From positions 1 to 38,150 of IMG/VR virus record IMGVR_UViG_3300030389_004419: a stretch of 38,150 bases of DNA; one strand, given 5' to 3'. The stretch comes from a virus. The stretch's first letter is position 1; each line of letters begins with the position of its first letter. The translations under genes were made by a program, and so were the position numbers. Below, in pieces: positions 1,846 to 20,238 of this stretch. The notes under the pieces are model-generated. The model had not been told where the DNA came from. It worked only from the letters and a program-made list of their open reading frames with translations, and ran no database searches.

Positions 1846-2843
1846 TGGCTACGTCAAGTGTATATTGTACAAATAGAGATTTAAAAGATGTATATCCTAA
1901 TATAGATGAATTTGATTCTAAAACACCTATATATGGTTGGAATGTAGCAACAGGATCACAATATGTAGCATATAATGTTGGTTTAGTTACTGCTTTATTT
2001 GTTGCAGGAAATAATCAAGGGACTGCAAGAACATCTGCTGATGATGTTAATAATAATGGCGAATGGTATTATGACTCTACAACTGATGCTATATATTATT
2101 ATAATGATACTACAAGTCCTAATGATTTGCTTATGGAGTCAGGCGAAGATTATGCTACATTAAAAACAAGATATATAGCAAATGCATCGAGATATATAGA
2201 CTCAAGACTTGATGGCGAATTACCAAGAGATGCTTTTAAAGATAAAGAAGGAAATTATGATTATGTTATAGTTAGATTAACTGCTTTATATGCTTGTTCT
2301 TTTTTAATTAAAAGTATGGAAGCTACATCAGAGGTAGCCAATGAATTTACAAAAGAAGCTGAATTTCTTATCTCTCAATTAAATGATGGAAAAACAAAAT
2401 TATCATTTCAAATATCTGGAGATGCATCACAAGGTAATTTAAGAGAGGTTACATCACCACAAGCTGACAATGCTTTAAGAATAGTAGATGTACAAGGCGT
2501 ATATACAGGTTCTGGATATGATTTAATGAAAATATATATAGATACTGGAGATGGTGGTGCATTAGGTGTTGGTAAATTTTCTGTTCAAAATAAAGATAGT
2601 GTAAAGCTTAAAAATAATTTACTTGTAGATTCAGAAATCATTACTGGAGATTATCAACATTTAGGTAATGGATTAAAAATTAGATTTTCAGGGAAAAATG
2701 ACAGCTCTATAGCGACTGAAGGCGATGAATATGAATTAGAAGTTTTTGGTTGGTCTGAGCCTACTGACAATCCAACTGTACGTGGAATAAAAATGTCAAG
2801 ATCATACCCTTTTAGTAATTCAATAATAAAACGTAGACTCTAA
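1845..2843 (+). CDS. Putative head-tail connector (adaptor) protein, 332 aa
   Basis: The start overlaps the previous stop and the stop overlaps the next start, so the gene is translationally coupled on both sides. Near the N-terminus it has YCTNRDLKDVYPNI. At about residues 105-185 there is a helical bundle (TRYIANASRYIDSRL..., TALYACSFLIKSME, EFTKEAEFLISQL). This resembles gp6/gp15-type head completion adaptors, which build a ring under the portal. The C-terminal 140 residues are beta-rich and extend beyond the usual 100-150-residue adaptor, which suggests an added surface domain. Its place just before a tail-terminator-like gene fits a neck role. The family assignment is by helix pattern and context, not by a diagnostic motif. 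Confidence 0.55.
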   Translation: MATSSVYCTNRDLKDVYPNIDEFDSKTPIYGWNVATGSQYVAYNVGLVTALFVAGNNQGTARTSADDVNNNGEWYYDSTTDAIYYYNDTTSPNDLLMESGEDYATLKTRYIANASRYIDSRLDGELPRDAFKDKEGNYDYVIVRLTALYACSFLIKSMEATSEVANEFTKEAEFLISQLNDGKTKLSFQISGDASQGNLREVTSPQADNALRIVDVQGVYTGSGYDLMKIYIDTGDGGALGVGKFSVQNKDSVKLKNNLLVDSEIITGDYQHLGNGLKIRFSGKNDSSIATEGDEYELEVFGWSEPTDNPTVRGIKMSRSYPFSNSIIKRRL

Positions 2844-5404
2844 TGCCTATAACTTATAATACAGTTTGGTGGGATAAAGTATTAAATCCTATAAAAAACA
2901 TCATAAAAAATGAGTTTCCTCATTTTAGTACATATATATCAGAATCTTACAAACCTATGGGAAACATATCATTTCGTTTGTTTGGCATATCTTCTACCTT
3001 ATTGCAAAGACATCATAAATCAGAAATTAGAGAATATGAAATAGAAATTGCATATTATTTAAAAGATGCAGGAGAAAGAGAAAGAACATACGAAAAAATA
3101 TATAGAGATATGGATCGTTTAAATACGTTAGTATTTAAAAATAGAACATATTCAGGAACAGGTGGAGTATTTTTTGATATGAAAATGGATTCTATATCTA
3201 TAGATGATAAAGATGATATAGAAGAAACCATTGCTGATTTATTTGTAGCAAAATCAACAATTACTTGTAAATATTCTGCTGTATTTGCAGATACAACATC
3301 TTCAGACCCTTTAATAACGGGTGGATTAGGATCTTTGCAAACTTTTTACAATAGAAAATCAATGTTGTTTGATGGTGTTGATGAGTATCTTCAAAGCACA
3401 GCAACTTATGATCCTTATAATAGTGGTAATATTTCACCTTTTACTATGTCTGCATGGGTAAAATTATCATCAGATGCAACAAGTGGTCAAACAAGTGGTG
3501 CTATTTTTTCTCATAATGGATATCAAACTCAGTTTGCTTTTAGAAATACTACTTGGAATGGTAGTGGTTTTGATCAAATAAGAATAATTGGGCAAACAGG
3601 TGGTATTGGCGAAAGTAATCTTGGTAATGGTTGGAATTATTATATGTCTCATGATACTAATTGGCATCACATTGTATGGGTAGCAGAACAAGCAGTATGG
3701 GGAACAAATGCTGAAGGAGTGACACCTGGAACTCCTGCAAAATATTTTGTTAAAAATTCTCTTTATGTTGATGGGGTACAAGTTCAAATACAATATGGTG
3801 ATGGACACTCATCTGCAGGGTTAAACAGATCAGGACAAACCGTAGGAACATATACACCTGAAACACAAACTTGGACTGGTAATATAGTTTTTAATGAACA
3901 ATCGTCTCAACAATTATATAGAACAACAAGAGTTTTAAGAGGCGATTTGAGCATGACAGATGCTTTGGCAGAGGATGTTCCTTCTTATTATAGTTTAAGT
4001 AGTATAAGATTAGGGGCAGATAGAAATACAACTTTTTATCCTGGTTATATTGATGAAGCTACTATGTGGACAAAAGCTTTAAGTGCAAGTGAAATATTAT
4101 CTTTGTACAATTCTGGAAAACCAACTAATGTTAAGCAAAATTCTGGAGATTATGTTTCGAAAGACAATATATTATTTTTCTATAGAATGGGAGATAATGC
4201 TGAAACACGAAATTTAGATACTGATTCTAACAATTTAATTGTTCCTGATGATAATACATCGTCTGTTTTTACAACAAAATCATGTCAATTTGATGGAGTA
4301 GATGATCAAATAAATTTTGGAAGCAATTCATCTTTAGATAATATTTTTGATGGTGGAGGTTCTATTAGTTTTTGGATAAAACCAACTCAACAATCTAATA
4401 CTATGGGAATTATTCAAAAAATTTATGTAGGTGGTTGGTATTTTGTTTTATCTGATCATGCAAGTGGAAATTCTTGGAGAGCAAAATTTGTTCAATCATT
4501 TGATGGCGGGAGTCATTATCAAGTTCAAGGTCAGCAAAGAATTTTTGAAAAAAATAATTGGTATCATGTTGTAATAGTTTATGATAATTCATCTACAAGT
4601 AATACAGTTATTATATATGTTAATGGTTCGGCTATTGGAATTAATACAGACTCAACTCCTTCAGGAACAAGAATGGACGATTCAAGTGCCAATTTAGTTA
4701 TGGGCGACACTGGTCAATATGAATTTTCTGGAAATATTTCTGATGTATCAATTTTTAATACAATTTTAAATGCTAATACAGTAAATTCTATATATAATTC
4801 TGGTGTTCCTAATAATTTATTATTAAGTTCAAGTTACACATCAGGAAGTGGGTCAGACTCCTCTTCAAATCTTACTAATTATTGGAGATTAGGTAGCGAT
4901 TCTCAAGATTTAGAGGGATTAGACAAAACTTTATTAATAAATAAAGTCAATAATACTTTAGGGAACAATATAGCTACAATTTCAACAAAATCTGCAAATG
5001 TTAGTGCAAGTGCAGTTGTTCAAAATAGTGTTTCTTCTGCATTAGAAGCAGGAGTTATTTACAAAATAAGTTTTACAATATCATCTTTTGTAAAAGGTGG
5101 ATTTAATATAACACAATCAAGTGGAGTAGATTCAAGTACAATTATAAATGGTCAAGTAGGAACAAAAAATGGTAATCATATTGTTTATTTAAGATCACAA
5201 AATACCAATGTTTTTAATTTAGTTTCTGATTCTTTAGGATATGAAGGATCAATTAGTAATTTTAAAGTAGAAAAATTAAATAGCAATTCAGGTATTATGG
5301 GTAATATGAGTGAATTTGATATTATAGATCAAGCTCCAACAAGATTGCATGGAACTATGACTAATTTTGATTCAACAAATGATATAACATCTACAGTCCC
5401 ATAG
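2843..5404 (+). CDS. Tail-terminator-like domain fused to two LamG domains, 853 aa
   Basis: Residues 1-150 have the size and alternating alpha/beta pattern of tail terminator or tail completion proteins: N-terminal helix, then SFRLFG and EIEIAYYLKD strands, and a C-terminal ITCKYSA strand. Such proteins normally stop there. Here two concanavalin-type LamG domains follow. The first spans about 173-440, opening MLFDGVDEYLQS and ending with the LamG_3-type tail TKALSASEILSLYNSGKP. The second spans about 478-660, opening CQFDGVDDQINFG and ending IYNSGVPNN. Residues 690-853 form a further beta-rich domain. LamG domains typically bind glycans or proteins, so this may decorate the neck with a binding surface. 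LamG is well supported; the terminator call is context-based. Confidence 0.75.
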   Translation: MPITYNTVWWDKVLNPIKNIIKNEFPHFSTYISESYKPMGNISFRLFGISSTLLQRHHKSEIREYEIEIAYYLKDAGERERTYEKIYRDMDRLNTLVFKNRTYSGTGGVFFDMKMDSISIDDKDDIEETIADLFVAKSTITCKYSAVFADTTSSDPLITGGLGSLQTFYNRKSMLFDGVDEYLQSTATYDPYNSGNISPFTMSAWVKLSSDATSGQTSGAIFSHNGYQTQFAFRNTTWNGSGFDQIRIIGQTGGIGESNLGNGWNYYMSHDTNWHHIVWVAEQAVWGTNAEGVTPGTPAKYFVKNSLYVDGVQVQIQYGDGHSSAGLNRSGQTVGTYTPETQTWTGNIVFNEQSSQQLYRTTRVLRGDLSMTDALAEDVPSYYSLSSIRLGADRNTTFYPGYIDEATMWTKALSASEILSLYNSGKPTNVKQNSGDYVSKDNILFFYRMGDNAETRNLDTDSNNLIVPDDNTSSVFTTKSCQFDGVDDQINFGSNSSLDNIFDGGGSISFWIKPTQQSNTMGIIQKIYVGGWYFVLSDHASGNSWRAKFVQSFDGGSHYQVQGQQRIFEKNNWYHVVIVYDNSSTSNTVIIYVNGSAIGINTDSTPSGTRMDDSSANLVMGDTGQYEFSGNISDVSIFNTILNANTVNSIYNSGVPNNLLLSSSYTSGSGSDSSSNLTNYWRLGSDSQDLEGLDKTLLINKVNNTLGNNIATISTKSANVSASAVVQNSVSSALEAGVIYKISFTISSFVKGGFNITQSSGVDSSTIINGQVGTKNGNHIVYLRSQNTNVFNLVSDSLGYEGSISNFKVEKLNSNSGIMGNMSEFDIIDQAPTRLHGTMTNFDSTNDITSTVP

Positions 5405-5415
5405 TTAGGAGATAT

Positions 5416-5664
5416 ATGTTTGAAAATAGAAAATATGTAATAATAACTTTAGCAGATTATGACAATGCAAAATTAAAAGAAATGATTTTAAATTCCTTGC
5501 AATCAAGTTTAGATTCAGCAAGAAAATCTGTTAATGAAGAAAAAATAATATTAAAATGGAATGGGACAACTCCATCTGTTTTTGAAAATATGACAATATA
5601 TACACATTCTGAAATATTAAATGTTTTAACCACATCGGAATGGAATGTACCAATTGAAGAATAA
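5416..5664 (+). CDS. Small unrecognised protein in the tail module, 82 aa
   Basis: The start is set by ttaggagatat just upstream. The protein is soluble, alternating helix and strand (KYVIITLADYDNAKLKEMILNSLQ near the start), with no cysteine, membrane helix or known motif. It lies 11 bases after the LamG gene and before the tail tube, so a role in tail assembly or neck completion is plausible but unproven. Confidence 0.7.
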   Translation: MFENRKYVIITLADYDNAKLKEMILNSLQSSLDSARKSVNEEKIILKWNGTTPSVFENMTIYTHSEILNVLTTSEWNVPIEE

Positions 5665-5710
5665 TAGGTTTTATAAAAACAAAAATGTTTATTAAATTAA
5701 TGAGGATATT

Positions 5711-5899
5711 ATGAAGATAAAATTAATAAAAGAATTTCCTGAGGGATTTGGTTTTGGTGGACTACCTGATACTTTTTTAAAAATGAAAGTAGGAGATCAA
5801 CTTGAAATGGACGAAATTCCAGCTAAAATTAACGAATATGTTGAAGAAGTTGCAGTTAAAAAGACAACAAAATCAACTAAAGAAGAAAAAGAGGAGTAG
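5711..5899 (+). CDS. Small acidic/lysine-rich protein, 62 aa
   Basis: A tgaggatatt site precedes the ATG. The N-terminal 45 residues read like a small folded domain (KLIKEFPEGFGFGG, MKVGDQLEMDEIPAKI). The last 15 are a charged, probably disordered tail (KKTTKSTKEEKEE). It ends 3 bases before the tail tube start and contributes the gaggag Shine-Dalgarno for it. No function can be assigned from sequence. Confidence 0.7.
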   Translation: MKIKLIKEFPEGFGFGGLPDTFLKMKVGDQLEMDEIPAKINEYVEEVAVKKTTKSTKEEKEE

Positions 5900-5902
5900 A
5901 AA

Positions 5903-6970
5903 ATGGCAGTATCAACAAAGGCATGGTCGCCAAAAGAATTTAGCATAGCTATAGGAGCTGAAGCTACTGTTGGAACAGCAAGTTCAGCTATGAAAATGAT
6001 AGAAGCAGAAGGTATGCCTTCTCTTTTTACTTATAATGATATTAAAGCTACAGATCAACGCCAAAATTCTTCATATAGAGCATTAACTGCTGGCGACGTT
6101 CAAAGTATTGCAAACAATGCAACATCTGAAGCTACTTTTTCAGGGTTTCTTGATACAACTATTTTCCCATTATTATTAGAAAATGCTATGGGTGTTGAAT
6201 TTTCAAGTGGTTTAGCTATTGTTGGATATCAACATAGTCCAACAAGTTTTGCTCATGCCGCAGGATCAAGTGGCGCTCACAATACAGTGTCTTTGGGTAT
6301 TCAAGGTGCTACTACTCAATCTATTGGAGATACATCATTTCTTTTAAAAGGTTGTGTTTGTACCTCATTAACTATTTCAGGAGATGTAAATGAAGATGGC
6401 GGAAGATTAAAATTTGATGCATCTTTTATGACTAAAACACCTCCAGGTGCTACTCTTGAAGATAGTAATTCTGATCATTTTGGTGGTGATCCAACTGATT
6501 ATACTGAAGCTTATTTATATATGAGTCAATTTACACAAAATGGGTTATTTTATGGTGCTGAATCTTTAATTGAATCTTTTTCATTGACTATATCAAATCC
6601 AGTTTCATTTCTTGGAAACATAGGCGGTGCTACAGGCACACCAGAAAGTTATCTAAGAAGTGTTCCATCTCTTGATGTTACAGGTAATGTTGTTATGAAA
6701 TATGATGACAGTAATGAAAATTTAGCATCTAAACATAAAGCTTTAACTTTAAGTGGAACAAAAGCAGGGTTTTATTTAGGTTCAGATGCTGATGTACTTT
6801 CAGGAAGTAATACAACAGTTCAAAATGACTCATCAGGTCTTGGATTTTTATGTAATCATGTAATAATAACTGATTTAGCTTTAGAAGAAGGAGATTTTGC
6901 AAAATGGAATGCATCATTTAAATCTGTACAAAGTGGAACAAATGCTTTATTACAAGTCTTACAAGGATAG
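5903..6970 (+). CDS. Major tail tube protein, 355 aa
   Basis: This is the best candidate for the protein that stacks in rings to form the tail tube. The length fits large tail tube proteins. The N-terminus (SPKEFSIAIGAEATVGTASS) has the style of phage tail tube proteins, which open with a strand followed by an ATxGT loop. The remainder is beta-rich with frequent Gly/Ser/Thr and no membrane segment. It sits where siphoviruses place this gene, shortly before the tail assembly chaperone pair and tape measure. The start is supported by gaggagtagaaa immediately upstream. Strong and regular translation signals fit a high-copy virion protein. Confidence 0.75.
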   Translation: MAVSTKAWSPKEFSIAIGAEATVGTASSAMKMIEAEGMPSLFTYNDIKATDQRQNSSYRALTAGDVQSIANNATSEATFSGFLDTTIFPLLLENAMGVEFSSGLAIVGYQHSPTSFAHAAGSSGAHNTVSLGIQGATTQSIGDTSFLLKGCVCTSLTISGDVNEDGGRLKFDASFMTKTPPGATLEDSNSDHFGGDPTDYTEAYLYMSQFTQNGLFYGAESLIESFSLTISNPVSFLGNIGGATGTPESYLRSVPSLDVTGNVVMKYDDSNENLASKHKALTLSGTKAGFYLGSDADVLSGSNTTVQNDSSGLGFLCNHVIITDLALEEGDFAKWNASFKSVQSGTNALLQVLQG

Positions 6971-7643: not shown

Positions 7644-8110
7644 AATCCCTCACATTATCTCTTAATGTTTATATAGACAATTGGTGTGAGGGCTGTAATT
7701 TTCATAGCTTTCCATATAAAGCACGTATACCTGTTAAAAAGAACAATAAGTATGTTGTTCAAGAATTTAAATCAAAAGAAGATGTTTACAACGTATGTAA
7801 ATTAATATCTAAAGAAGTAAAAGATTATAATTTGAATAATAAAGATAATTTTGATGTAGGGCTTTCTATATACAATCAGTTATCTTTTTTTGCTTGTAAA
7901 AACATATTTCTTGATGATCAATCTCAAAAAGACATATCTCAGTATATATACTGTAAAGATTTTGGGGTTTCTCCGTATGAAGGAACCTATAAACAGCATC
8001 CACGTAAATGGGTCCAAAAGTATTATATTATCAAAACTGCAATTGCTAAAAAAGAAAAGCTTGAAATAGAAAAGCAGAGAAACAAAGCTAAAAAGGTAAG
8101 TAATGGCTAA
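7637..8110 (+). CDS. Frameshift extension of the tail assembly chaperone (gpGT-like)
   Basis: The -1 frame is open from 7601, after a stop at 7598-7600, to 8110, where it ends 8 bases inside the tape measure gene. Between the G-run and the first plausible independent start (TTG 7832, without a clear Shine-Dalgarno) lie about 65 open, protein-like codons with no ATG. Translation by frameshift from 7344 is therefore the best explanation. The extension holds a CEGC motif soon after the shift and a Lys/Glu-rich helical C-terminus (KKEKLEIEKQRNKAKK). The full fusion would be about 255 residues, a normal size for gpGT-like proteins. It should bind the tape measure and recruit tail tube subunits. 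Confidence 0.7.
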   Translation, partial: GIESLTLSLNVYIDNWCEGCNFHSFPYKARIPVKKNNKYVVQEFKSKEDVYNVCKLISKEVKDYNLNNKDNFDVGLSIYNQLSFFACKNIFLDDQSQKDISQYIYCKDFGVSPYEGTYKQHPRKWVQKYYIIKTAIAKKEKLEIEKQRNKAKKVSNG

Positions 8111-10454
8111 TAGAATATTTATAGATTTTAGTAAAGAAATTAAAAAAGCTACAGAGGCTCTAAAGCAATATTCGGCTGGTGCTAATTCGGCTGCCAACAG
8201 TACAAAAAAAGTTGATGATGCAAATAATAAAGCTAAAAGAGGGTTTTTAGGTTTACAAAAAGGTTTAAGAAACGTACATAACGAATTTTCTGTTTTACGT
8301 TCTAAAATGTTGTTGGGTGCTTTTGCTATAGGATTAGTAGAAAAAAGTGTTGTAAGACTTACAAAAGCTTTTGGTGAACAAGAAGATGCTGAAACAAGAG
8401 TAAATCAAGCAATTGTAAGTACAGGCAGACTTGCACAAATATCAGGACAGCAGTTACAACAATATGCATCTGATCTTCAAAAAGTTACAAAATTTGGAGA
8501 TGAGGTTATTCTTTCGTCAAGTGCATTATTATTAACATTTACAAAAATAGGTTCTGATGTATTTCCTCAAGCACAAAAAGCAGTATTAGATCTTGCATCT
8601 GCTATGGGTACAGATTTAAAATCTGCATCTGTACAAGTGGGTAAAGCATTAAACGATCCTCTTAAAGGACTTACAGCTCTGCAAAGAGTGGGTATAGTAT
8701 TTACACAATCACAACGAGAGCAAATAAAAGTATTTATGGCTAATAATGAGGTTGCAAAAGCTCAAGCTATAATATTAAAAGAATTAAATGTAGAGTTTGG
8801 TGGAATGGCTGATATACTTGCTCAGACAGTTAATGGGCAATTAGCACAAGCAAATAATGCATTTGGAGATATGGCTGAAAATATTGGTCAAAATTTAGCT
8901 CCTGTAGTTTTATCTGTTGCAAAGGCATTAAAAGAACTTTCAGAAGAAGCAAATCAAGAGTCTACTAAGAAATTTGTTCAAACAATTCTATTTTTAGCAC
9001 AAGCATTTTTAACTTTAAAAGTAGCATCAGGCGCCGCCTTAGTAGTAACAAAAAATTTCAACAAAGTTATTAAAGGTTTAGGTAGAATTGCTTTTGGATT
9101 AACAGGAACAATGTCAAATTTATTTCTTATGAATAAAGTTAATACTGTTCAAATTCAAAAACTTACTGATGGTCTTGATTTAGCTACAATTTCTATGAGT
9201 CATTTTGATCAGGCAGCCAAATTAAAATTAGCTCAAGAAGGCATAGAAGGTTCAAAAAAACTTATAAAAGAACTAAGAAAAGAAGCACAAGAATCTGCTA
9301 TTGCTGATATAGCATTAGAAACAGGTCAAAATTATGAATTTGTAAAACATCAAATAGAAACATTAACAAATAATGAATTTAAAACATGGCTTAAACAATT
9401 AAGAGTAGGAAAAACAGCTACACAAATGCTTAGTGATGGTACACTATCATTAATTGAAAGATATAAAAGATTAGAAGAAATAACTAAAAATGTTGGTAAT
9501 ATGACTGTAGCTGAGTCTGAAGCATTAATTAAAATGCGAAAAGCTTATGAAAAACTTGAAGTTGGTAGTCGAATACAAGATATTAAAAATTTGACAGATC
9601 AAACAGGTTTTATGACTAATGAGCAATTCAAATTGTTAGAAATGCAAGAAAAAGAAAGACTGAGCTTACAAACTTTAGGAATATCATACGATAAAATTAC
9701 AGAAATACAATTACAAAATATGATAGATAAAACTGCTGAATTATCTATTGAAAAACAAAAAGGAATACAACAATCTCGTCTTGATATACAAGAAACACAA
9801 ATGAACAATCAAGTAATACTTGACTTAGAAACAACATTGGTTATGGGATTAACTGATTTGTGGAACTCTTATAGCAGATCAAGAATGAAAGACATCAATG
9901 CTGAATATGATTTAAAAGTACAAAATGCTAAAAAAACTATAAAGAATGAACGATTATTAGATATTGAATTAGGTAAAATAGCAAGTCAAAAAGAACAAGC
10001 AGAAAAACAAGCTCATAACAAGCTAATTAATATGCAAATATTATCTACTATAGCAGAAGGTGCCGCGGCAGCCTTTAAAATATATGCTAATATGGCTCCT
10101 GGAATGGCTAATCCTTGGACTACATCAGTTTATACACCATTATTTTATAAACAAATGGGTGTTTTAGCTATACAAAAAGCTCTTGCTATAGGCTCATTAC
10201 AAGCACAAAAAGCAGAATATGGTGCCGATTTTGTTACTCAGGGTCCACAAATGTTAATGGTAGGCGATAATCCGGGTGGGCGTGAACGTGTTCAAGTTAC
10301 TCCAATAGGTAGCCCTAATGTTAATGGACCAAGTGGTGGTAATGTTAATATAACATTTACAGGAAATGTAATGACACAATCATTTATAGAAGATGAAGCT
10401 ATACCTGCAATAAAAGAAGCTGTTAGACGTGGCGCTGATATAGGAATCTCATAA
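8103..10454 (+). CDS. Tail tape measure protein, 783 aa
   Basis: This protein sets tail length and travels down the tube at infection. It is a long, mostly helical protein directly after the chaperone pair. Near residues 55-75 a hydrophobic segment (SKMLLGAFAIGLVEKSVV) follows a LGLQKGLRNV helix, and a second hydrophobic stretch lies near 290-315. The block QAQKAVLDLASAMGTDLKSA followed by VGKALNDPLKGLTALQRVG is typical of tape measure N-terminal halves. The C-terminal third carries charged coiled-coil-like helices (TLVMGLTDLWNS..., EQAEKQAHNKL). At about 1.5 angstroms per residue it predicts a tail somewhat over 100 nm. It is the most confident tail gene here. Confidence 0.9.
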   Translation: MANRIFIDFSKEIKKATEALKQYSAGANSAANSTKKVDDANNKAKRGFLGLQKGLRNVHNEFSVLRSKMLLGAFAIGLVEKSVVRLTKAFGEQEDAETRVNQAIVSTGRLAQISGQQLQQYASDLQKVTKFGDEVILSSSALLLTFTKIGSDVFPQAQKAVLDLASAMGTDLKSASVQVGKALNDPLKGLTALQRVGIVFTQSQREQIKVFMANNEVAKAQAIILKELNVEFGGMADILAQTVNGQLAQANNAFGDMAENIGQNLAPVVLSVAKALKELSEEANQESTKKFVQTILFLAQAFLTLKVASGAALVVTKNFNKVIKGLGRIAFGLTGTMSNLFLMNKVNTVQIQKLTDGLDLATISMSHFDQAAKLKLAQEGIEGSKKLIKELRKEAQESAIADIALETGQNYEFVKHQIETLTNNEFKTWLKQLRVGKTATQMLSDGTLSLIERYKRLEEITKNVGNMTVAESEALIKMRKAYEKLEVGSRIQDIKNLTDQTGFMTNEQFKLLEMQEKERLSLQTLGISYDKITEIQLQNMIDKTAELSIEKQKGIQQSRLDIQETQMNNQVILDLETTLVMGLTDLWNSYSRSRMKDINAEYDLKVQNAKKTIKNERLLDIELGKIASQKEQAEKQAHNKLINMQILSTIAEGAAAAFKIYANMAPGMANPWTTSVYTPLFYKQMGVLAIQKALAIGSLQAQKAEYGADFVTQGPQMLMVGDNPGGRERVQVTPIGSPNVNGPSGGNVNITFTGNVMTQSFIEDEAIPAIKEAVRRGADIGIS

Positions 10455-13400
10455 TGAAAAGTGTACCTTCAATATTTAGAGAAGATATTTATTCTAATGT
10501 TAATGCATTAGTTCCTTTTGTTATTATACATTCTGATCCTAAAACATATATATCTACACAAGAATTTGATTTAGATAACAATCATTACTATCCTTATTTA
10601 AATTCATTCTCAGGAGTTAGAGAAAGTATCAATATGAAAGATATTTTTTCTAAAAGAACTTGGAGAAATAGTAATGTATCAATAAAAGTAGAAAACTTTA
10701 AAAGACATACAGATGATGGTACTGATTATTTTTCTGATTTTATTAATGAAAATGGTGGATACACTAATTTAAAAGTTGAAATATATTTAAAATCGCAAAG
10801 TGGAACAAGTTTAACTGATTGTTTAAAAGTATATACAGGCAAAATAAGATCAATACAGCAAACAAGCACATTTCTGCAATTAAATATAGAAGATGAATCC
10901 TCTATAAAATTAAAAGATTTTAAAGTTCCTGCATCTAAACTTGATGATAGTGAAAATGTTCCTGAAAATTTTAGAAATAAAATTATTCCTATGACTTATG
11001 GAAGAGTATTAAGAGCACCAACAGTACAAATAACGAAAGAATCAAGCTCTTTACAGTCGGATTATCAACCAGACAGAAATATAGCTGTTAAAGTAGATAA
11101 TAAACCTATATATGCATTTGGTGGAGATAATGCAGAAATAAATAGTGATGGTTATTTGAATCAAAGAACTCCTTTACAAGTTAAAGCAGGAGAAAAAACT
11201 TATGCTTGGGTTCCTAATAATCATACAGAAACTTTCGAAGGGAATCTTGATTGTAATCCTGATGCAGAATTTCCACAAACAATATATGATCAAGAAACTG
11301 CAAGTGTAGAATTACCAGCTTTTGCTGAAAGAAATGTAGATGGTGGAGATGCAGATGGAACAGTTATAAGAACAAAAAACCCTATTGGTGATGGTTTATT
11401 AGAATGTTGGGTAAGAAGAAAAATTGATTCTGTACACCCACCACAAGGAGATATTGTTGAAGATTATTATAATTTAGAAAAATCTTATGATGGGGTAAGA
11501 AAAGATGAAGATTGGATAGAAAATACAGATCCAGATAGCGAAGAATATATTACTAATCCTTATGCATATTTTCAAGGATATGTAACTAATTCACTTTATG
11601 GTCAAAGAACTTTTTTAACATATAATTTAAATTCAGATATAGATTTGCCTTCTATATTTAGTCAAGCATATTTTCAAATATGTTTATGGTTGCAAGGAAC
11701 AGATAATATTGATATAGATTTAATTGCAACTGCTGAATTTGGAGAAAGCGATACTGGTTGGTCAGGGTCATACGATGTTGCAAATGTTTGGAATGCTCCA
11801 GGGGATAGTCTAACAAATTTGCCTTATAAAAATTCTGGTGGTCAAGAATATAATTGGAGAGATTTAGATACATATTATTCTCAAAGTTGGTCAAATGCTA
11901 TTAATGGATCATCATCAGGTGTTAGTTGGTTTGGTGGAGTTGCAGATCAGCATAGATTTGGTAACCCATGGGGCTATATACCAGGATTTACAAGATGGGA
12001 TAATATAAATCAATTTAATAAAGTTAAACTATATGTGTGGGGAAGATATCCTGATCCTGATGGGACTCCAGCTGGCTATCAACTAAGAATAGGGCAAGTA
12101 GGTATTTTTCATAAAACATTGTGCGAGATGAAAGACCTTGATTTTTTTGTAGATGTTTATGGTAGAGTTGATAATAATTTAGGTATTTATACAGGGATTC
12201 AAGATAGAAACCCTATATCTACAGAAAGAGATTGGATTTTAATTGATACTACTGAATCTACTGAACTTTGGAATTGTAGAACCGGTTATCAAAATTATGA
12301 TGAAATAACTTTAGTCCCATATCAATCAGGGAGTGCAGTAAATTTAAAATGTTCTAATTTTGCAGAACAAGTATTTGGAATGTCTGTTTATAGCTATGAA
12401 ATAGATGAAGATATTGCTCCTTTAAATATACAAGATTATTCAATTTCTTTAGGTTGGGGAGAATTAGAGGGATATTTTAATCAAGTAGAATCTATAACAG
12501 TTTATTATGGTAATGATTGGTTGCAATATAATTATCAAGGACAATATTTTTATTGGATAAATGGTGGCAGAGTTTTTTATAAAACTTATAGTGCAGGGTT
12601 TGGGCAAACTCAGTTTGTTTATTTAGATGATAATTATTTTGGAGATACTGCTCCTGGTAGTGGTTTTGATGTTGAACCAGCTGATCCTTTAGATGTAAGA
12701 TATATACATATAGTAATACAAAGAAATCCAGGAATTGAAACAGATTATAATTTAGCTATAAAAGTTTTGTATTATAATGGTCCATTAACTAATGTAGTAT
12801 ATGGTTGTACTGATGAACTTGCATCTAACTATAATATAGATGCGACAATAGATGATGGTAGTTGTGAATATGAAATGGTTCCTAATTGTGTTGCAACTTT
12901 ACTTGTAAATAGTGAAGTATATGAGGGGCAAAATCTTGTAAATTATGATAATTGTGCTATAAATTTGTTAGATAGTCAGCATGATGATGAATCAATAGCT
13001 ATTTCAAGCTATCATTGTGAACAAGTATTAGGCACACAACAACAAATTACAAATACAAGTAATGAAGCAGTTTTTGAATTTGAACTTTTTTCTAATTTAA
13101 ATCAAGAAACAATAGCATTTGATTGTTATGTTATAGATGAAAATGGAGATTATTCTGAAACAGTAAGAGTTAGTGTTTTTAAAAATCAACCGGTAAATGA
13201 ATATGGTTGTACTGATCCTCTCGCATTTAATTATAATCCTGATGCTATATATGATGATGATAGTTGTGAATATGTTATTCCTGATGAAGATATTCCTGAT
13301 GATTCATCTTCATTAATAGAAAACCCTGCAGATGTATTATATCATTTATTAGGAGAAGAAGTTGGATTAACATCTATTGGAAGTCAAGGAACACAAGAGG

Positions 13401-14761
13401 GACCATTTGATGTAGAATCTATAGAAAAATCAAGAGCCAATCATGTATTTACACAAGATTATACTAATTTTTCAAACTCTGTAGTACCTGCAGGATCTCA
13501 ATGGAAATTAGGGTTTTCTGTAAATAAAGAAATAGATACAAAATCATTATTAGAAAACATATCTACAAATTCTATGTGTTTTCCTTATTTTAACAGTAAA
13601 GGTATTTTTTCATTAATAACTGTTAGAGGTACCTATCATCAATTGCTTTCAAGTGGTGGAGCAGAGACATATTTTAATGAAATAAAAGCTCAAGACATTT
13701 TTAGTTATAAAATAGAAAGATCATCAATAGACGAGGTATATACAAATGTACAAGTTAATTATTCTAAAGATTATGGTAATGATAATTATGGAAAAACAAC
13801 AGGTGCTAAAAATTGGGATCAAATGTCAAGAGTATATATTAATGACCCTGATGCTAATTTAATTGATTATTACGGTTTAAATGAAGATTTATCTAAATTA
13901 AATTTTGATTCTGATTATATAACAGATACGGCAACAGCCAAAGCATTAAGAGATTTTATACTTGGTTGGAGTATGAATCAACATACTATTATAAAAATAA
14001 AATTACCATTAAAATATATTAAATATGAAGTAGGCGATATTTTGTATTTTAAAGATTTGATAGATAATAAAAAAGCTTTTGGAGAAGATTATTCTTATAA
14101 CAAAATTATTAATTCAGATGAATACACTATAAGAAATGGTCAAGTTATTTATCCTTTATTTATGGTATTTGAGTCATTAGCATCTACAAAAGAAGTTTCT
14201 CTATCTTTAATACAATTGCATGATTGGACAGGAGAAGTAGATAGAGGTTTTAATTTAGGAAACATTGAAGAAACTCCTGGAACATTTACAATAGAAAATA
14301 ATAGTGCTTTTGATGTGCCTTCAAATTATGCTAAGACAAGTAAATTAGAATCTTTATGTAATAGTCTTGTATTTACAAATACAACTCAACATGAAATTGA
14401 TAGAACAATATGGGATTTTGGCGATGGTAATATAGTAGAAACAACAGATACAGAAATAACACATAAATATACAAATATAGATAACTCAGAATTAACTCCT
14501 TATGCGATAAAACCTGTAACAATGACATCAATATCTGTATCAGGAGAAGAATCTGTAAAAACTTTAAATGTTCATGTATATAGAGTAGGAGACTATAGTC
14601 AAGATGGTATAGTTGATATAATAGATATAATAATGTTAGTTAATATTTTGCTTTCTGTAGATACTCCTGATCCTTTGCTTGGATTTTGTTGCGATACTGA
14701 TAATAGTGGAATATTAAACATAATTGATATAATTTCAATAATAAACGATGTGTTGAGCTAA
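10454..14761 (+). CDS. Giant tail tip/host-interaction protein with Cys-rich repeats, PKD and dockerin-like C-terminus, 1435 aa
   Basis: The gene follows the tape measure with a one-base overlap, the place of distal tail and tail hub proteins. Residues 1-200 (FDLDNNHYYPYLNS, KDIFSKRTWRNS) look like a baseplate/hub N-terminal region. The middle is rich in Tyr, Asn and Asp and beta-like. Two copies of the pattern GCTD..A.NYN..A..DD.SCEY begin at G784 and G918. A PKD-type signature WDFGDG lies at 1320-1325. The C-terminus has two EF-hand-like loops, D1380-D1391 (DYSQDG) and D1414-D1425 (DTDNSG), each followed by an IIDII helix, matching the duplicated layout of type I dockerins. The Ca-binding positions are filled. 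These modules suggest receptor or carbohydrate-surface contact. Tail tip placement is inference; the C-terminal modules are directly visible. Confidence 0.8.
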   Translation: MKSVPSIFREDIYSNVNALVPFVIIHSDPKTYISTQEFDLDNNHYYPYLNSFSGVRESINMKDIFSKRTWRNSNVSIKVENFKRHTDDGTDYFSDFINENGGYTNLKVEIYLKSQSGTSLTDCLKVYTGKIRSIQQTSTFLQLNIEDESSIKLKDFKVPASKLDDSENVPENFRNKIIPMTYGRVLRAPTVQITKESSSLQSDYQPDRNIAVKVDNKPIYAFGGDNAEINSDGYLNQRTPLQVKAGEKTYAWVPNNHTETFEGNLDCNPDAEFPQTIYDQETASVELPAFAERNVDGGDADGTVIRTKNPIGDGLLECWVRRKIDSVHPPQGDIVEDYYNLEKSYDGVRKDEDWIENTDPDSEEYITNPYAYFQGYVTNSLYGQRTFLTYNLNSDIDLPSIFSQAYFQICLWLQGTDNIDIDLIATAEFGESDTGWSGSYDVANVWNAPGDSLTNLPYKNSGGQEYNWRDLDTYYSQSWSNAINGSSSGVSWFGGVADQHRFGNPWGYIPGFTRWDNINQFNKVKLYVWGRYPDPDGTPAGYQLRIGQVGIFHKTLCEMKDLDFFVDVYGRVDNNLGIYTGIQDRNPISTERDWILIDTTESTELWNCRTGYQNYDEITLVPYQSGSAVNLKCSNFAEQVFGMSVYSYEIDEDIAPLNIQDYSISLGWGELEGYFNQVESITVYYGNDWLQYNYQGQYFYWINGGRVFYKTYSAGFGQTQFVYLDDNYFGDTAPGSGFDVEPADPLDVRYIHIVIQRNPGIETDYNLAIKVLYYNGPLTNVVYGCTDELASNYNIDATIDDGSCEYEMVPNCVATLLVNSEVYEGQNLVNYDNCAINLLDSQHDDESIAISSYHCEQVLGTQQQITNTSNEAVFEFELFSNLNQETIAFDCYVIDENGDYSETVRVSVFKNQPVNEYGCTDPLAFNYNPDAIYDDDSCEYVIPDEDIPDDSSSLIENPADVLYHLLGEEVGLTSIGSQGTQEGPFDVESIEKSRANHVFTQDYTNFSNSVVPAGSQWKLGFSVNKEIDTKSLLENISTNSMCFPYFNSKGIFSLITVRGTYHQLLSSGGAETYFNEIKAQDIFSYKIERSSIDEVYTNVQVNYSKDYGNDNYGKTTGAKNWDQMSRVYINDPDANLIDYYGLNEDLSKLNFDSDYITDTATAKALRDFILGWSMNQHTIIKIKLPLKYIKYEVGDILYFKDLIDNKKAFGEDYSYNKIINSDEYTIRNGQVIYPLFMVFESLASTKEVSLSLIQLHDWTGEVDRGFNLGNIEETPGTFTIENNSAFDVPSNYAKTSKLESLCNSLVFTNTTQHEIDRTIWDFGDGNIVETTDTEITHKYTNIDNSELTPYAIKPVTMTSISVSGEESVKTLNVHVYRVGDYSQDGIVDIIDIIMLVNILLSVDTPDPLLGFCCDTDNSGILNIIDIISIINDVLS

Positions 14762-17851: not shown

Positions 17852-19169
17852 TTCTAAAGTCCTCTATTGATTGATATAATTTTGCTTTGTCTCCATTAAA
17901 TCCTAATCTTGCAGTTCCAGAATTTCCATATCTTACTTTTGAACATATAGCCTCAATAACATTTGGTCCTAATCTACTATCTGTGGTATGTATCTTATAA
18001 TCATAATAAACAAATATAACATTTTCAGCCACTTGTTCTATTGATCCTGATTCAGCTAAATCAGACAATCTTGGCTTAGCATCTCCCCTATGTTCCAACA
18101 TTCTATTTAATTGGCTTACTAAAATTACAACACAATTATTATTCTTTGCTAACCATTTGTAATCATTTACAATTTTTTCCAATTGTAGTCGCCTTTGATC
18201 TATTCCATTTTCAGGGCTAATTAATTGTATATAATCATCTATAATTACATCAGGCTTAAACTTTTTTATTTCACTTGCACCATTAGAGAAATTATATATC
18301 TTATCGAACATTAAAAATCTGTCCTTATTGTATTTTTCCTCTATTACTTTTTTAGTACGTTCTATTTCTTCAACATCGCCATTTTCAAATATTCCTTGTC
18401 TTATCATCATATAAGATAGATTTTCACTTTCAAGAGTAATAAGCTTTTTTAGCATCTCTACGTTTGTCATTTCTCTATTAATCATTAACACTTTGTTCCC
18501 TGCATCAACACAATTTTTAAGCACATTTAATATCATTGTAGTTTTACCATGACCAGGTCTACCACCTATAATAGATATTTCTCCTCTTGTCATTCCACCA
18601 CATAAATCGTCTATAGATTTAAATCCTGTTTTTATAAGATTCTCTTTACTATTTTTAATACTTGATATGGCGTTCATAATCTCATCACTAATATTAAATT
18701 CTCCACCAGGTCTAATGGATATCATTTCACTTATTAAATTATGTGCAGTATTTAAAGAGGAAAATACATCTTTATTACCATGAGCCTCTTGTTGAATATC
18801 TTTGGTTTTTTCTAATACCGTTCTTACAAGATACTTTTCATATATCTTTTTAGCATATACAATGGCTGTTTCACGTGTTAAATTAGAATTAGTTAATCCT
18901 GTTATGAAATATTCATTAACACCTTGCTCTTTATCATCATCAGAAAGGGCACAACATACGGTTATCATATCTACGTGTTCATTGTTTCTTTCCATCTTAT
19001 TGATAATATTAAACAACAAAACACTTTTTTCATCGTATAATGTCTTGGTATTTGCATAGACTTGAACATCTGTTAATAATGTTTTGTCCTCTAAAATTGC
19101 TCCAAGCAGAGCAAATTCAGCATCTACAGCATTAGGCTCTGTCATCTCCTTGTAAGTCTTTTCTCTCAT
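17838..19169 (-). CDS. dnaB: DnaB-like replicative DNA helicase, 443 aa
   Basis: Hexameric 5'-3' helicase that unwinds the fork. The N-terminal region (VDAEFALLGAILEDKTLL) is the DnaB N domain, which contacts primase. The RecA-type domain has Walker A GGRPGHGKTT near residue 200, MINREMT as the H1a-type motif with Glu, VIIDDYIQLI as Walker B, VVILVSQLNR as the Gln-containing motif III, and a C-terminal KVRYGNSG-type arginine region. All motor motifs look intact. An upstream AGGAGAAAAAAC supports this start, so its first 38 bases overlap the ABC-GNAT gene. No primase is visible nearby, so a host primase may be recruited. Confidence 0.95.
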   Translation of the reverse strand: MREKTYKEMTEPNAVDAEFALLGAILEDKTLLTDVQVYANTKTLYDEKSVLLFNIINKMERNNEHVDMITVCCALSDDDKEQGVNEYFITGLTNSNLTRETAIVYAKKIYEKYLVRTVLEKTKDIQQEAHGNKDVFSSLNTAHNLISEMISIRPGGEFNISDEIMNAISSIKNSKENLIKTGFKSIDDLCGGMTRGEISIIGGRPGHGKTTMILNVLKNCVDAGNKVLMINREMTNVEMLKKLITLESENLSYMMIRQGIFENGDVEEIERTKKVIEEKYNKDRFLMFDKIYNFSNGASEIKKFKPDVIIDDYIQLISPENGIDQRRLQLEKIVNDYKWLAKNNNCVVILVSQLNRMLEHRGDAKPRLSDLAESGSIEQVAENVIFVYYDYKIHTTDSRLGPNVIEAICSKVRYGNSGTARLGFNGDKAKLYQSIEDFRNAKK

Positions 19170-20238
19170 TTGTTTTTTCTCCTATGTATTCATGAGAGTA
19201 ACATATTCTTGTATCAAGTTTCCAATTGTCAAATTTCCCTTGTTTGCTGACAATCTTACCCGAAGAACTTGTTGCTCTCCACTTTTTTGATTCATTTCTA
19301 TACCCACCTAATCTTGGGTGTGCAGTTCTGGAATAGTATCTTTTACCTTCATCTATATGCAATTGTGCTATTGCATCAGACAATCTTGGCCCAACGCCAA
19401 GTCCTTGATAGTCTGGTAATATAACAGTTCTATGCTCTCTATATGCATTTTTAACTGTTCCTGATGGTAAAGGTAATGATGAACTAAACCCTATTAAAGT
19501 ATCTTCCCATACAGCTCCATAACATCTGGCAGCCTTACTAACCTCATTACTTAAATAGTGATGTTGAGCAAAGAAGGTCCATAACGAAGTCGTTCCACGA
19601 TAGATTGTAATGGTGATTTTTGGTCGCCTAAGCCACCTCCCTTGTGCATAACTACCATCAAGAGTATCGAATACCCAATCAGGTTGTAACCATTCAAGTA
19701 TATCTCTATGACAAGATGCTATAACTATTTTATTTATATCAGAACGATCAACAAAACGTCTTAAAGAACGAGAAACTGCTTTAGCTACTACTCTATCTAC
19801 TACAGATGTAAACTCATCTATAACAGCATTATCTTTCATTCTACGAGCAAGATCAGCTCTAAACTTTTCTCCTGTTGATAGTACGTGATAAGGTCGCATC
19901 CAAGACGGAGTAGTATTTAATCCTACAGCAGATAGTCTTTCAATAGCAACCTCAGGGTTTTCAAAATGCGATACAATGGCTTTGTTTCTGTTCCAAGATA
20001 TTTCTTCTTCTTTGCCAAATTCATCTAACATAGATGATTTCCCTGATCCACTTGGACCAACTATAAGCCCTATTTTAAAATCATCAGGAATTTTAGGGAT
20101 CCCCCACAATTTAAACTTAGATGTTCCATCAAACTCATAGTCAAAGCATTGCGATGCATACTCTGTATATTCATCTGTTTCTACAGATACAGATACCTCT
20201 GTTTTGTTTTCGTGTTGAAATAAAGATAAATCACTCAT
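19132..20238 (-). CDS. ABC-type ATPase fused to a GNAT acyltransferase-like domain, 368 aa
   Basis: Residues 1-200 form a compact ABC ATPase: Walker A GPSGSGKSS (61-69), a signature-like LSTGEKFRADLARR (120-133), Walker B AVIDE with catalytic E142, and H-loop H177. No membrane segment exists, so it is not a transporter. Residues 205-345 look like a GNAT fold, with the acyl-CoA loop pattern in LPDYQGLGVGPRL (274-286). They also carry HHYLS (226-230) and TAHPRLGGYRNESKKW (305-320), which recall Mom-type DNA-modifying GNAT proteins. The architecture resembles COG2401, an ABC ATPase with a predicted acetyltransferase. It overlaps dnaB and a zinc-ribbon gene. Nucleic acid modification is a reasonable guess; the substrate is unknown. 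Confidence 0.85.
   Translation of the reverse strand: MSDLSLFQHENKTEVSVSVETDEYTEYASQCFDYEFDGTSKFKLWGIPKIPDDFKIGLIVGPSGSGKSSMLDEFGKEEEISWNRNKAIVSHFENPEVAIERLSAVGLNTTPSWMRPYHVLSTGEKFRADLARRMKDNAVIDEFTSVVDRVVAKAVSRSLRRFVDRSDINKIVIASCHRDILEWLQPDWVFDTLDGSYAQGRWLRRPKITITIYRGTTSLWTFFAQHHYLSNEVSKAARCYGAVWEDTLIGFSSSLPLPSGTVKNAYREHRTVILPDYQGLGVGPRLSDAIAQLHIDEGKRYYSRTAHPRLGGYRNESKKWRATSSSGKIVSKQGKFDNWKLDTRICYSHEYIGEKTNERKDLQGDDRA

Follow-up and report, generated by a model that had tools for sequence, protein, structure and literature searches.

Sequence comparison and structure prediction identify the 1435-aa protein encoded in the analysed DNA as the central protein of a siphophage tail tip, with a gpJ-like hub and a C-terminal dockerin. 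Dockerins are the calcium-binding plugs of bacterial surface assemblies, with cohesins as the matching sockets. At the distal tip of a virion, such a domain could act as a receptor-binding or first-adsorption module, with a cohesin-like domain on the host surface as its likely partner; we assign this reading a probability of about 50%. The combination of a gpJ-like tip protein with a dockerin as its C-terminal end is kept across a large group of uncultured phages.

The window, i.e. the whole stretch of DNA that was analysed, is an IMG/VR record of the linear class with a length of 38,150 bases and belongs to a tailed phage. On the plus strand, the tape-measure gene is followed by the gene of the tip protein, a 204-aa gene and a 447-aa gene (Table 1). 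DnaB helicase, terminase, the major head protein and a Cas4-like nuclease are also encoded. No relatives of the tape-measure protein were found in IMG/VR. The product of the 447-aa gene shows a weak tail-tube/Dit-like fold (Z about 9). An 853-aa protein (positions 2843–5404, plus strand) combines a tail-terminator-like match (phrog_347) with a lectin-like Laminin_G_3 domain (82 bits). On the minus strand (positions 19132–20238), P-loop ATPase and GNAT acetyltransferase portions are joined in one protein, which matches phrog_11143 (E 1e-111) and shares 47% identity with an Aeromonas phage PX29 protein.

Table 1 Features of the tail-tip region of the window
Feature	Positions	Strand	Basis and remarks
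Tape-measure protein gene	8103..10454	+	Directly upstream of tip gene; PF06791 TMP_2 48.1 bits; phrog_27166 125.5 bits
Tail-tip (central hub/fibre) protein, gpJ-like, 1435 aa	10454..14761	+	ORF, ATG start; after tape-measure gene; hub fold
First GCTD..DDGSC repeat, residues 784–804	12803..12865	+	Sequence
Possible PKD/Ig-like domain, residues 836–908, between GCTD repeats	12959..13177	+	K319L-like_PKD 19.4 bits, cut-off of 27 not reached
Second GCTD..DDDSC repeat, residues 918–938	13205..13267	+	Sequence
Hub region, about residues 985–1265	13406..14248	+	Fold matches; conserved in relatives
PKD-like stretch with WDFGDG, residues 1307–1341	14372..14476	+	PKD_4 16.8 bits, under cut-off; low model confidence there
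Dockerin type I domain, residues 1379–1433	14588..14752	+	PF00404; leave-one-out profile; fold; stops 2 residues short of C-terminus
Calcium loop 1, DYSQDGIVDIID, residues 1380–1391	14591..14626	+	Sequence; ligand positions 1, 3, 5, 9 and 12 filled
Calcium loop 2, DTDNSGILNIID, residues 1414–1425	14693..14728	+	Sequence; ligand positions 1, 3, 5, 9 and 12 filled
Next tail gene, 204 aa	14764..15378	+	Gene order; same place bears C-terminal dockerin in G037, probably also in L395
Second next tail gene, 447 aa	15368..16711	+	G003 homologue with dockerin inserted in loop (alignment)

The earlier note had placed the reading frame of the tip protein exactly (10454–14761, plus strand, ATG start, 1435 aa), and its assignment to the phage tail tip is borne out both by the gene position just after the tape-measure gene and by a hub fold like that of lambda gpJ and GTA. 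Residues 985–1435 were modelled with AlphaFold from 28 sequences. When the predicted structure was compared with VIA-align, the hub matched the lambda tip (8xcg_F) at Z 12.9 (Foldseek E 4e-8), the GTA hub (6tba_8A) at Z 10.2 and that of the marine siphophage R4C (8gtc_M) at Z 9.7; phages Chi and JBD30 show matching folds as well. Because the hub region folds like lambda gpJ and the GTA hub, the protein is a tail-tip protein. The whole protein yielded no matches in INPHARED, PDB sequences or PHROGs. It shares with gpJ the hub fold, the location of the gene after the tail tape-measure region and the distal C-terminus. The protein of the window ends in a dockerin; gpJ instead extends through FNIII domains and a central fibre to a tip that binds LamB (PMC10721106). 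Since LamB is bound by the C-terminal tip of gpJ, the dockerin sits where a receptor-binding end is expected.

In a six-frame search of the window, the Pfam family Dockerin_1 (PF00404) scored 24.9 bits (E 9.1e-7), which is above the cut-off of 22.9, and the dockerin domain on its own also matches this family. A profile of relatives that excludes the window recovered its dockerin at E 7e-7 among 1100 frames; in the PDB, the profile of the relatives found dockerins of clostridia at E values down to 3e-10. The pattern of the calcium loop occurs just twice in the six frames of the window, namely as DYSQDGIVDIID and DTDNSGILNIID. In 2000 shuffles of the tip protein, single loops appeared with a mean of 0.009, and pairs at the observed spacing did not appear. 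One value falls short, as hmmscan of the whole 1435-aa protein against Dockerin_1 gave just 19.5 bits (E 0.0012), below the Pfam cut-off, as would be expected if the match were a product of chance or a generic EF-hand-like pair. Against this stand the six-frame score, the finding that PF00404 is the best family for all 15 phage members compared, a fold match specific for dockerins and the conservation of the domain throughout the clade, which together rule out this explanation as extremely improbable.

The earlier note had proposed a duplicated dockerin type I layout at the C-terminus and had named the two F-hand helices as the feature to look for in a predicted fold. Sequence profile, predicted fold and relatives all agree with this layout. 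In the model, each calcium loop is followed by a helix (residues 1389–1399 and 1423–1434, corresponding to 405–415 and 439–450 in model numbering), and a linker helix connects the two loop-helix units (model residues 423–429); pLDDT values in the dockerin part are about 60–87. The predicted domain superposes on 8x39_A with an rmsd of 0.9 Å over 62 residues (Z 12.2), on 1ohz_B with 1.0 Å over 56 residues (Z 11.1) and on 2ccl with 1.1 Å over 60 residues (Z 11–12). Type I dockerins of clostridial cellulosomes (e.g. C. thermocellum Xyn10B, 1ohz; Clo1313_0689, 8x39) likewise consist of two calcium loop-helix repeats with a linker helix, fold within 0.9–1.1 Å of the phage domain and have an internal two-fold sequence symmetry. 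The identity between the two repeats is 50% in the window and 52% on average in phage dockerins. While the clostridial domains are borne on enzymes, the phage dockerin is found on a tail tip and carries V/I and L/V/I at positions 10 and 11. Based on profile and model, we consider the dockerin of the window to be real.

Other modules named in the earlier note fared less uniformly. Both GCTD repeats are present, about 450–600 residues upstream of the dockerin. HMM searches confirmed Dockerin_1 (in the six-frame, not the whole-protein search), but not the PKD families: the WDFGDG motif exists (residue 1320), whereas PKD_4 and K319L-like PKD both score under their cut-offs. A PKD domain in the tip protein is nevertheless likely from its sequence. 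GCTD..DDGSC repeats were seen again in the tips of G011, L272 and L319, with or without a dockerin. As a lead only, marine Bacteroidota and Marinimicrobia commonly contain such repeats and dockerins of this kind. One candidate tip relative (L002) was rejected, as it is a T4-type contig that matches through the PKD-like stretch only.

Relatives of the terminase with 53–88% identity were found at 80 loci. The search of 50 of their records yielded tip relatives in 18 and dockerins above the cut-off in 15, with scores of up to 48.8 bits for PF00404. With the hub core as query, 80 further tip loci were obtained from IMG/VR. The 67 complete tips were grouped into 49 clusters at 80% identity, of which 40 carry a dockerin: it is C-terminal in 29, internal right after the hub in 10 and on a downstream gene in one. 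Since the remaining nine clusters have none, the dockerin is not essential to the tip. The internal dockerins were found through an iterated profile; among six such segments compared with Pfam, four were above the cut-off, one was just under it and one had no match. Two canonical loops are present in 40 of 45 terminal phage dockerins. In many tips (L240, L245, L282 and others), a second, degenerate dockerin lies between the hub and the terminal one, resulting in four loop-helix repeats.

A DNA pattern for the dockerin loop, used over IMG/VR and holding no hub information, led, among the matches listed, to at least 71 loci in which the profile detected a dockerin, and in 56 of these 71 the dockerin is in an ORF with the hub core. 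Again among the matches listed, 53 of the 56 hub-protein dockerins end no more than 15 residues from the C-terminus. Dockerin domains gave no tblastn match in INPHARED (two queries) or PLSDB plasmids (one query), searches run with the low-complexity filter on and without a positive control. The best value for 15 dockerins against PHROGs was only E 0.0077.

The attachment point of the dockerin shifts within the group. In one relative (G037), the tip has no dockerin and the next gene, a 217-aa ORF, has one at its C-terminus. In another (G003), the tip is again devoid of it and a dockerin is inserted into a loop encoded by the second next gene, where 15 aligned homologues lack it. A third locus (L395), which also has a hub, encodes a 186-aa ORF ending in a dockerin, probably at the same gene place as in G037. 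Where the domain is missing from the tip, it can be found on a neighbouring tail gene; thus, the tip complex retains a dockerin while the attachment point changes, which fits an exposed binder. Selection seems to act on the presence of the dockerin at the tail end rather than on its fastening site.

The dockerin diverges more than the hub in 459 of 518 phage pairs, which are not independent of each other. Beyond the calcium ligands, both repeats of the phage set show conservation at positions 10, 11, 14, 17 and 18, with V/I at position 10 in 99% of first and 94% of second repeats and mostly L/V/I at position 11. In known dockerins, cohesin specificity is determined by the residues at positions 10 and 11 in the two repeats (PMC8063739). 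Alternatively, the domain may be passive and lack a specific partner, serving as a cap or spacer that is stabilised by calcium and was taken over from bacterial surface proteins along with the PKD-like and GCTD modules. Such modules, which are common decorations of secreted proteins, do occur in the tips, and the additional degenerate dockerin right after the hub in some of them is in line with a cap. We regard this explanation as rather unlikely, given that the five non-ligand positions are strongly conserved in both repeats, that the placement at the extreme C-terminus is nearly constant and that the domain reappears on neighbouring genes. From this combination of conservation, placement and reappearance, we infer a selected role of the dockerin.

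Besides docking to a host cohesin, the earlier note had considered that the domain holds another part of the virion. As an assembly joint, the dockerin would fasten another tail protein, such as a side fibre or decoration, whose cohesin-like domain is too diverged for Pfam. Dockerins are joints by origin, and weak cohesin-like scores of 11–17 bits were indeed obtained for a few phage proteins, i.e. a minor protein of G003 (201 aa, 17.3 bits) and the tips of G377–G379 and G389 (internal matches of 11–14 bits). However, these matches are located in unrelated places, with no one gene showing them repeatedly within the group, and cohesins (PF00963) above the cut-off numbered zero in 70 distinct related virus records, many of them fragments. 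The absence of such phage cohesins from these records weighs against a virion partner, and a dockerin whose attachment varies among three genes is awkward for a fixed joint, so that this role appears quite unlikely.

A receptor-binding role leads to the question of suitable sockets in bacteria. At a threshold of 1e-6, the phage-built dockerin profile hit large proteins in 21 of 395 Bacteroidota genomes, with scores of up to 56.6 bits. In the three proteins checked, a type IX sorting tail comes after the dockerin (Por_Secre_tail; one above the curated cut-off, two just under it). The dockerins of these large secreted T9SS proteins resemble the phage domain in profile score, but the proteins are cellular and their dockerin is internal, while that of the phage is terminal. 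Cohesins (at 1e-5) were detected in 13 of the 21 genomes with phage-type dockerins compared to 80 of the 374 genomes without (Fisher p 1e-4, uncorrected for genome kinship). Several of the Bacteroidota cohesins adjoin a dockerin gene or stand in tandem. For example, the Bacteroidota genomes G514, G649, G590, G562 and G420 (L446–L452, L466–L472) have cohesins near phage-type dockerin genes, some in tandem within one ORF, and a non-cellulosomal cohesin-dockerin surface system is possible there. According to these results, suitable sockets are available in bacteria that carry dockerins of the phage type, which is compatible with a host cohesin as partner but does not identify those bacteria as hosts. 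Many bacteria have dockerins without known cohesins, hence the fold alone is no proof of cohesin binding.

In cellular genomes, a close relative of the terminase was found in the MAG TMED88 only. This genome contains neither dockerins nor cohesins, and this terminase was found in none of the other genomes among the 282 of its phylum; the contig may therefore be misbinned. TMED88 was discarded as a host lead.

Dockerins were also observed in other genes of phages. Three T4-type contigs (L362; L367, positions 3490–4662; L404, positions 2358–3530) carry a gene for a secreted trypsin-like protease with a dockerin, adjoining DNA polymerase and sliding-clamp-like genes. The L362 protein scores 206 bits for Trypsin and 43 bits for Dockerin, while protease part and dockerin part are in adjacent frames in L367 and L404. 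These dockerins are of the same flavour as those of the tips (64 bits with the phage profile) and likewise lie on phage contigs; in contrast, they belong to an enzyme beside T4-type replication genes and not to a tail protein. As a possible auxiliary gene, the trypsin-dockerin gene may serve to dock a protease to the surface of the cell. A 51-kb virus contig (L389) encodes an arylsulfotransferase with a C-terminal dockerin (positions 5535–6806) and a 285-aa protein (positions 2158–3012), in which a dockerin is followed by a GCMD..DDGSC repeat resembling those of the tip in the window.

No report of a tail-tip dockerin was found in a literature search combining dockerin with phage tail, marine virus, virion and auxiliary genes, in which few subscription journals were covered. 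For an E. coli phage protein, one paper modelled a carbohydrate-binding module (2wz8), and another mentioned a dockerin blast match for gene 40 of VvAW1.

Taken together, the following course of adsorption is conceivable for the receptor-binding reading. The gpJ-like hub would cap the tail tube, with the dockerin as the distal and presumably exposed end of the tip. By analogy with lambda, such hubs being trimeric, three copies would probably be present per virion. Calcium from sea water would load the dockerin, which could then dock on a host partner; a surface protein with a cohesin-like domain is the most likely one, and this docking would constitute the receptor-binding or first-adsorption step. 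The binding face may be formed by the conserved hydrophobic residues that occupy positions 10 and 11, the specificity positions, in both repeats. That the phage group adsorbs via the tail-tip dockerin to cohesins of host surface scaffolds, with the bacterial cohesin-dockerin system as receptor, is a narrower proposal, which we put forward tentatively.

Cohesin and dockerin are among the strongest known protein-protein docking pairs. If the proposal is true, docking of this type would represent a new mode of host recognition by phages. It would also provide a handle on unculturable hosts, as the receptor would be a cohesin and could be found in genomes by its sequence. For non-cellulosomal cohesins and dockerins, the purpose of which is mostly obscure, a possible role would emerge, and the module in question is a 60-residue domain that is open to direct study.
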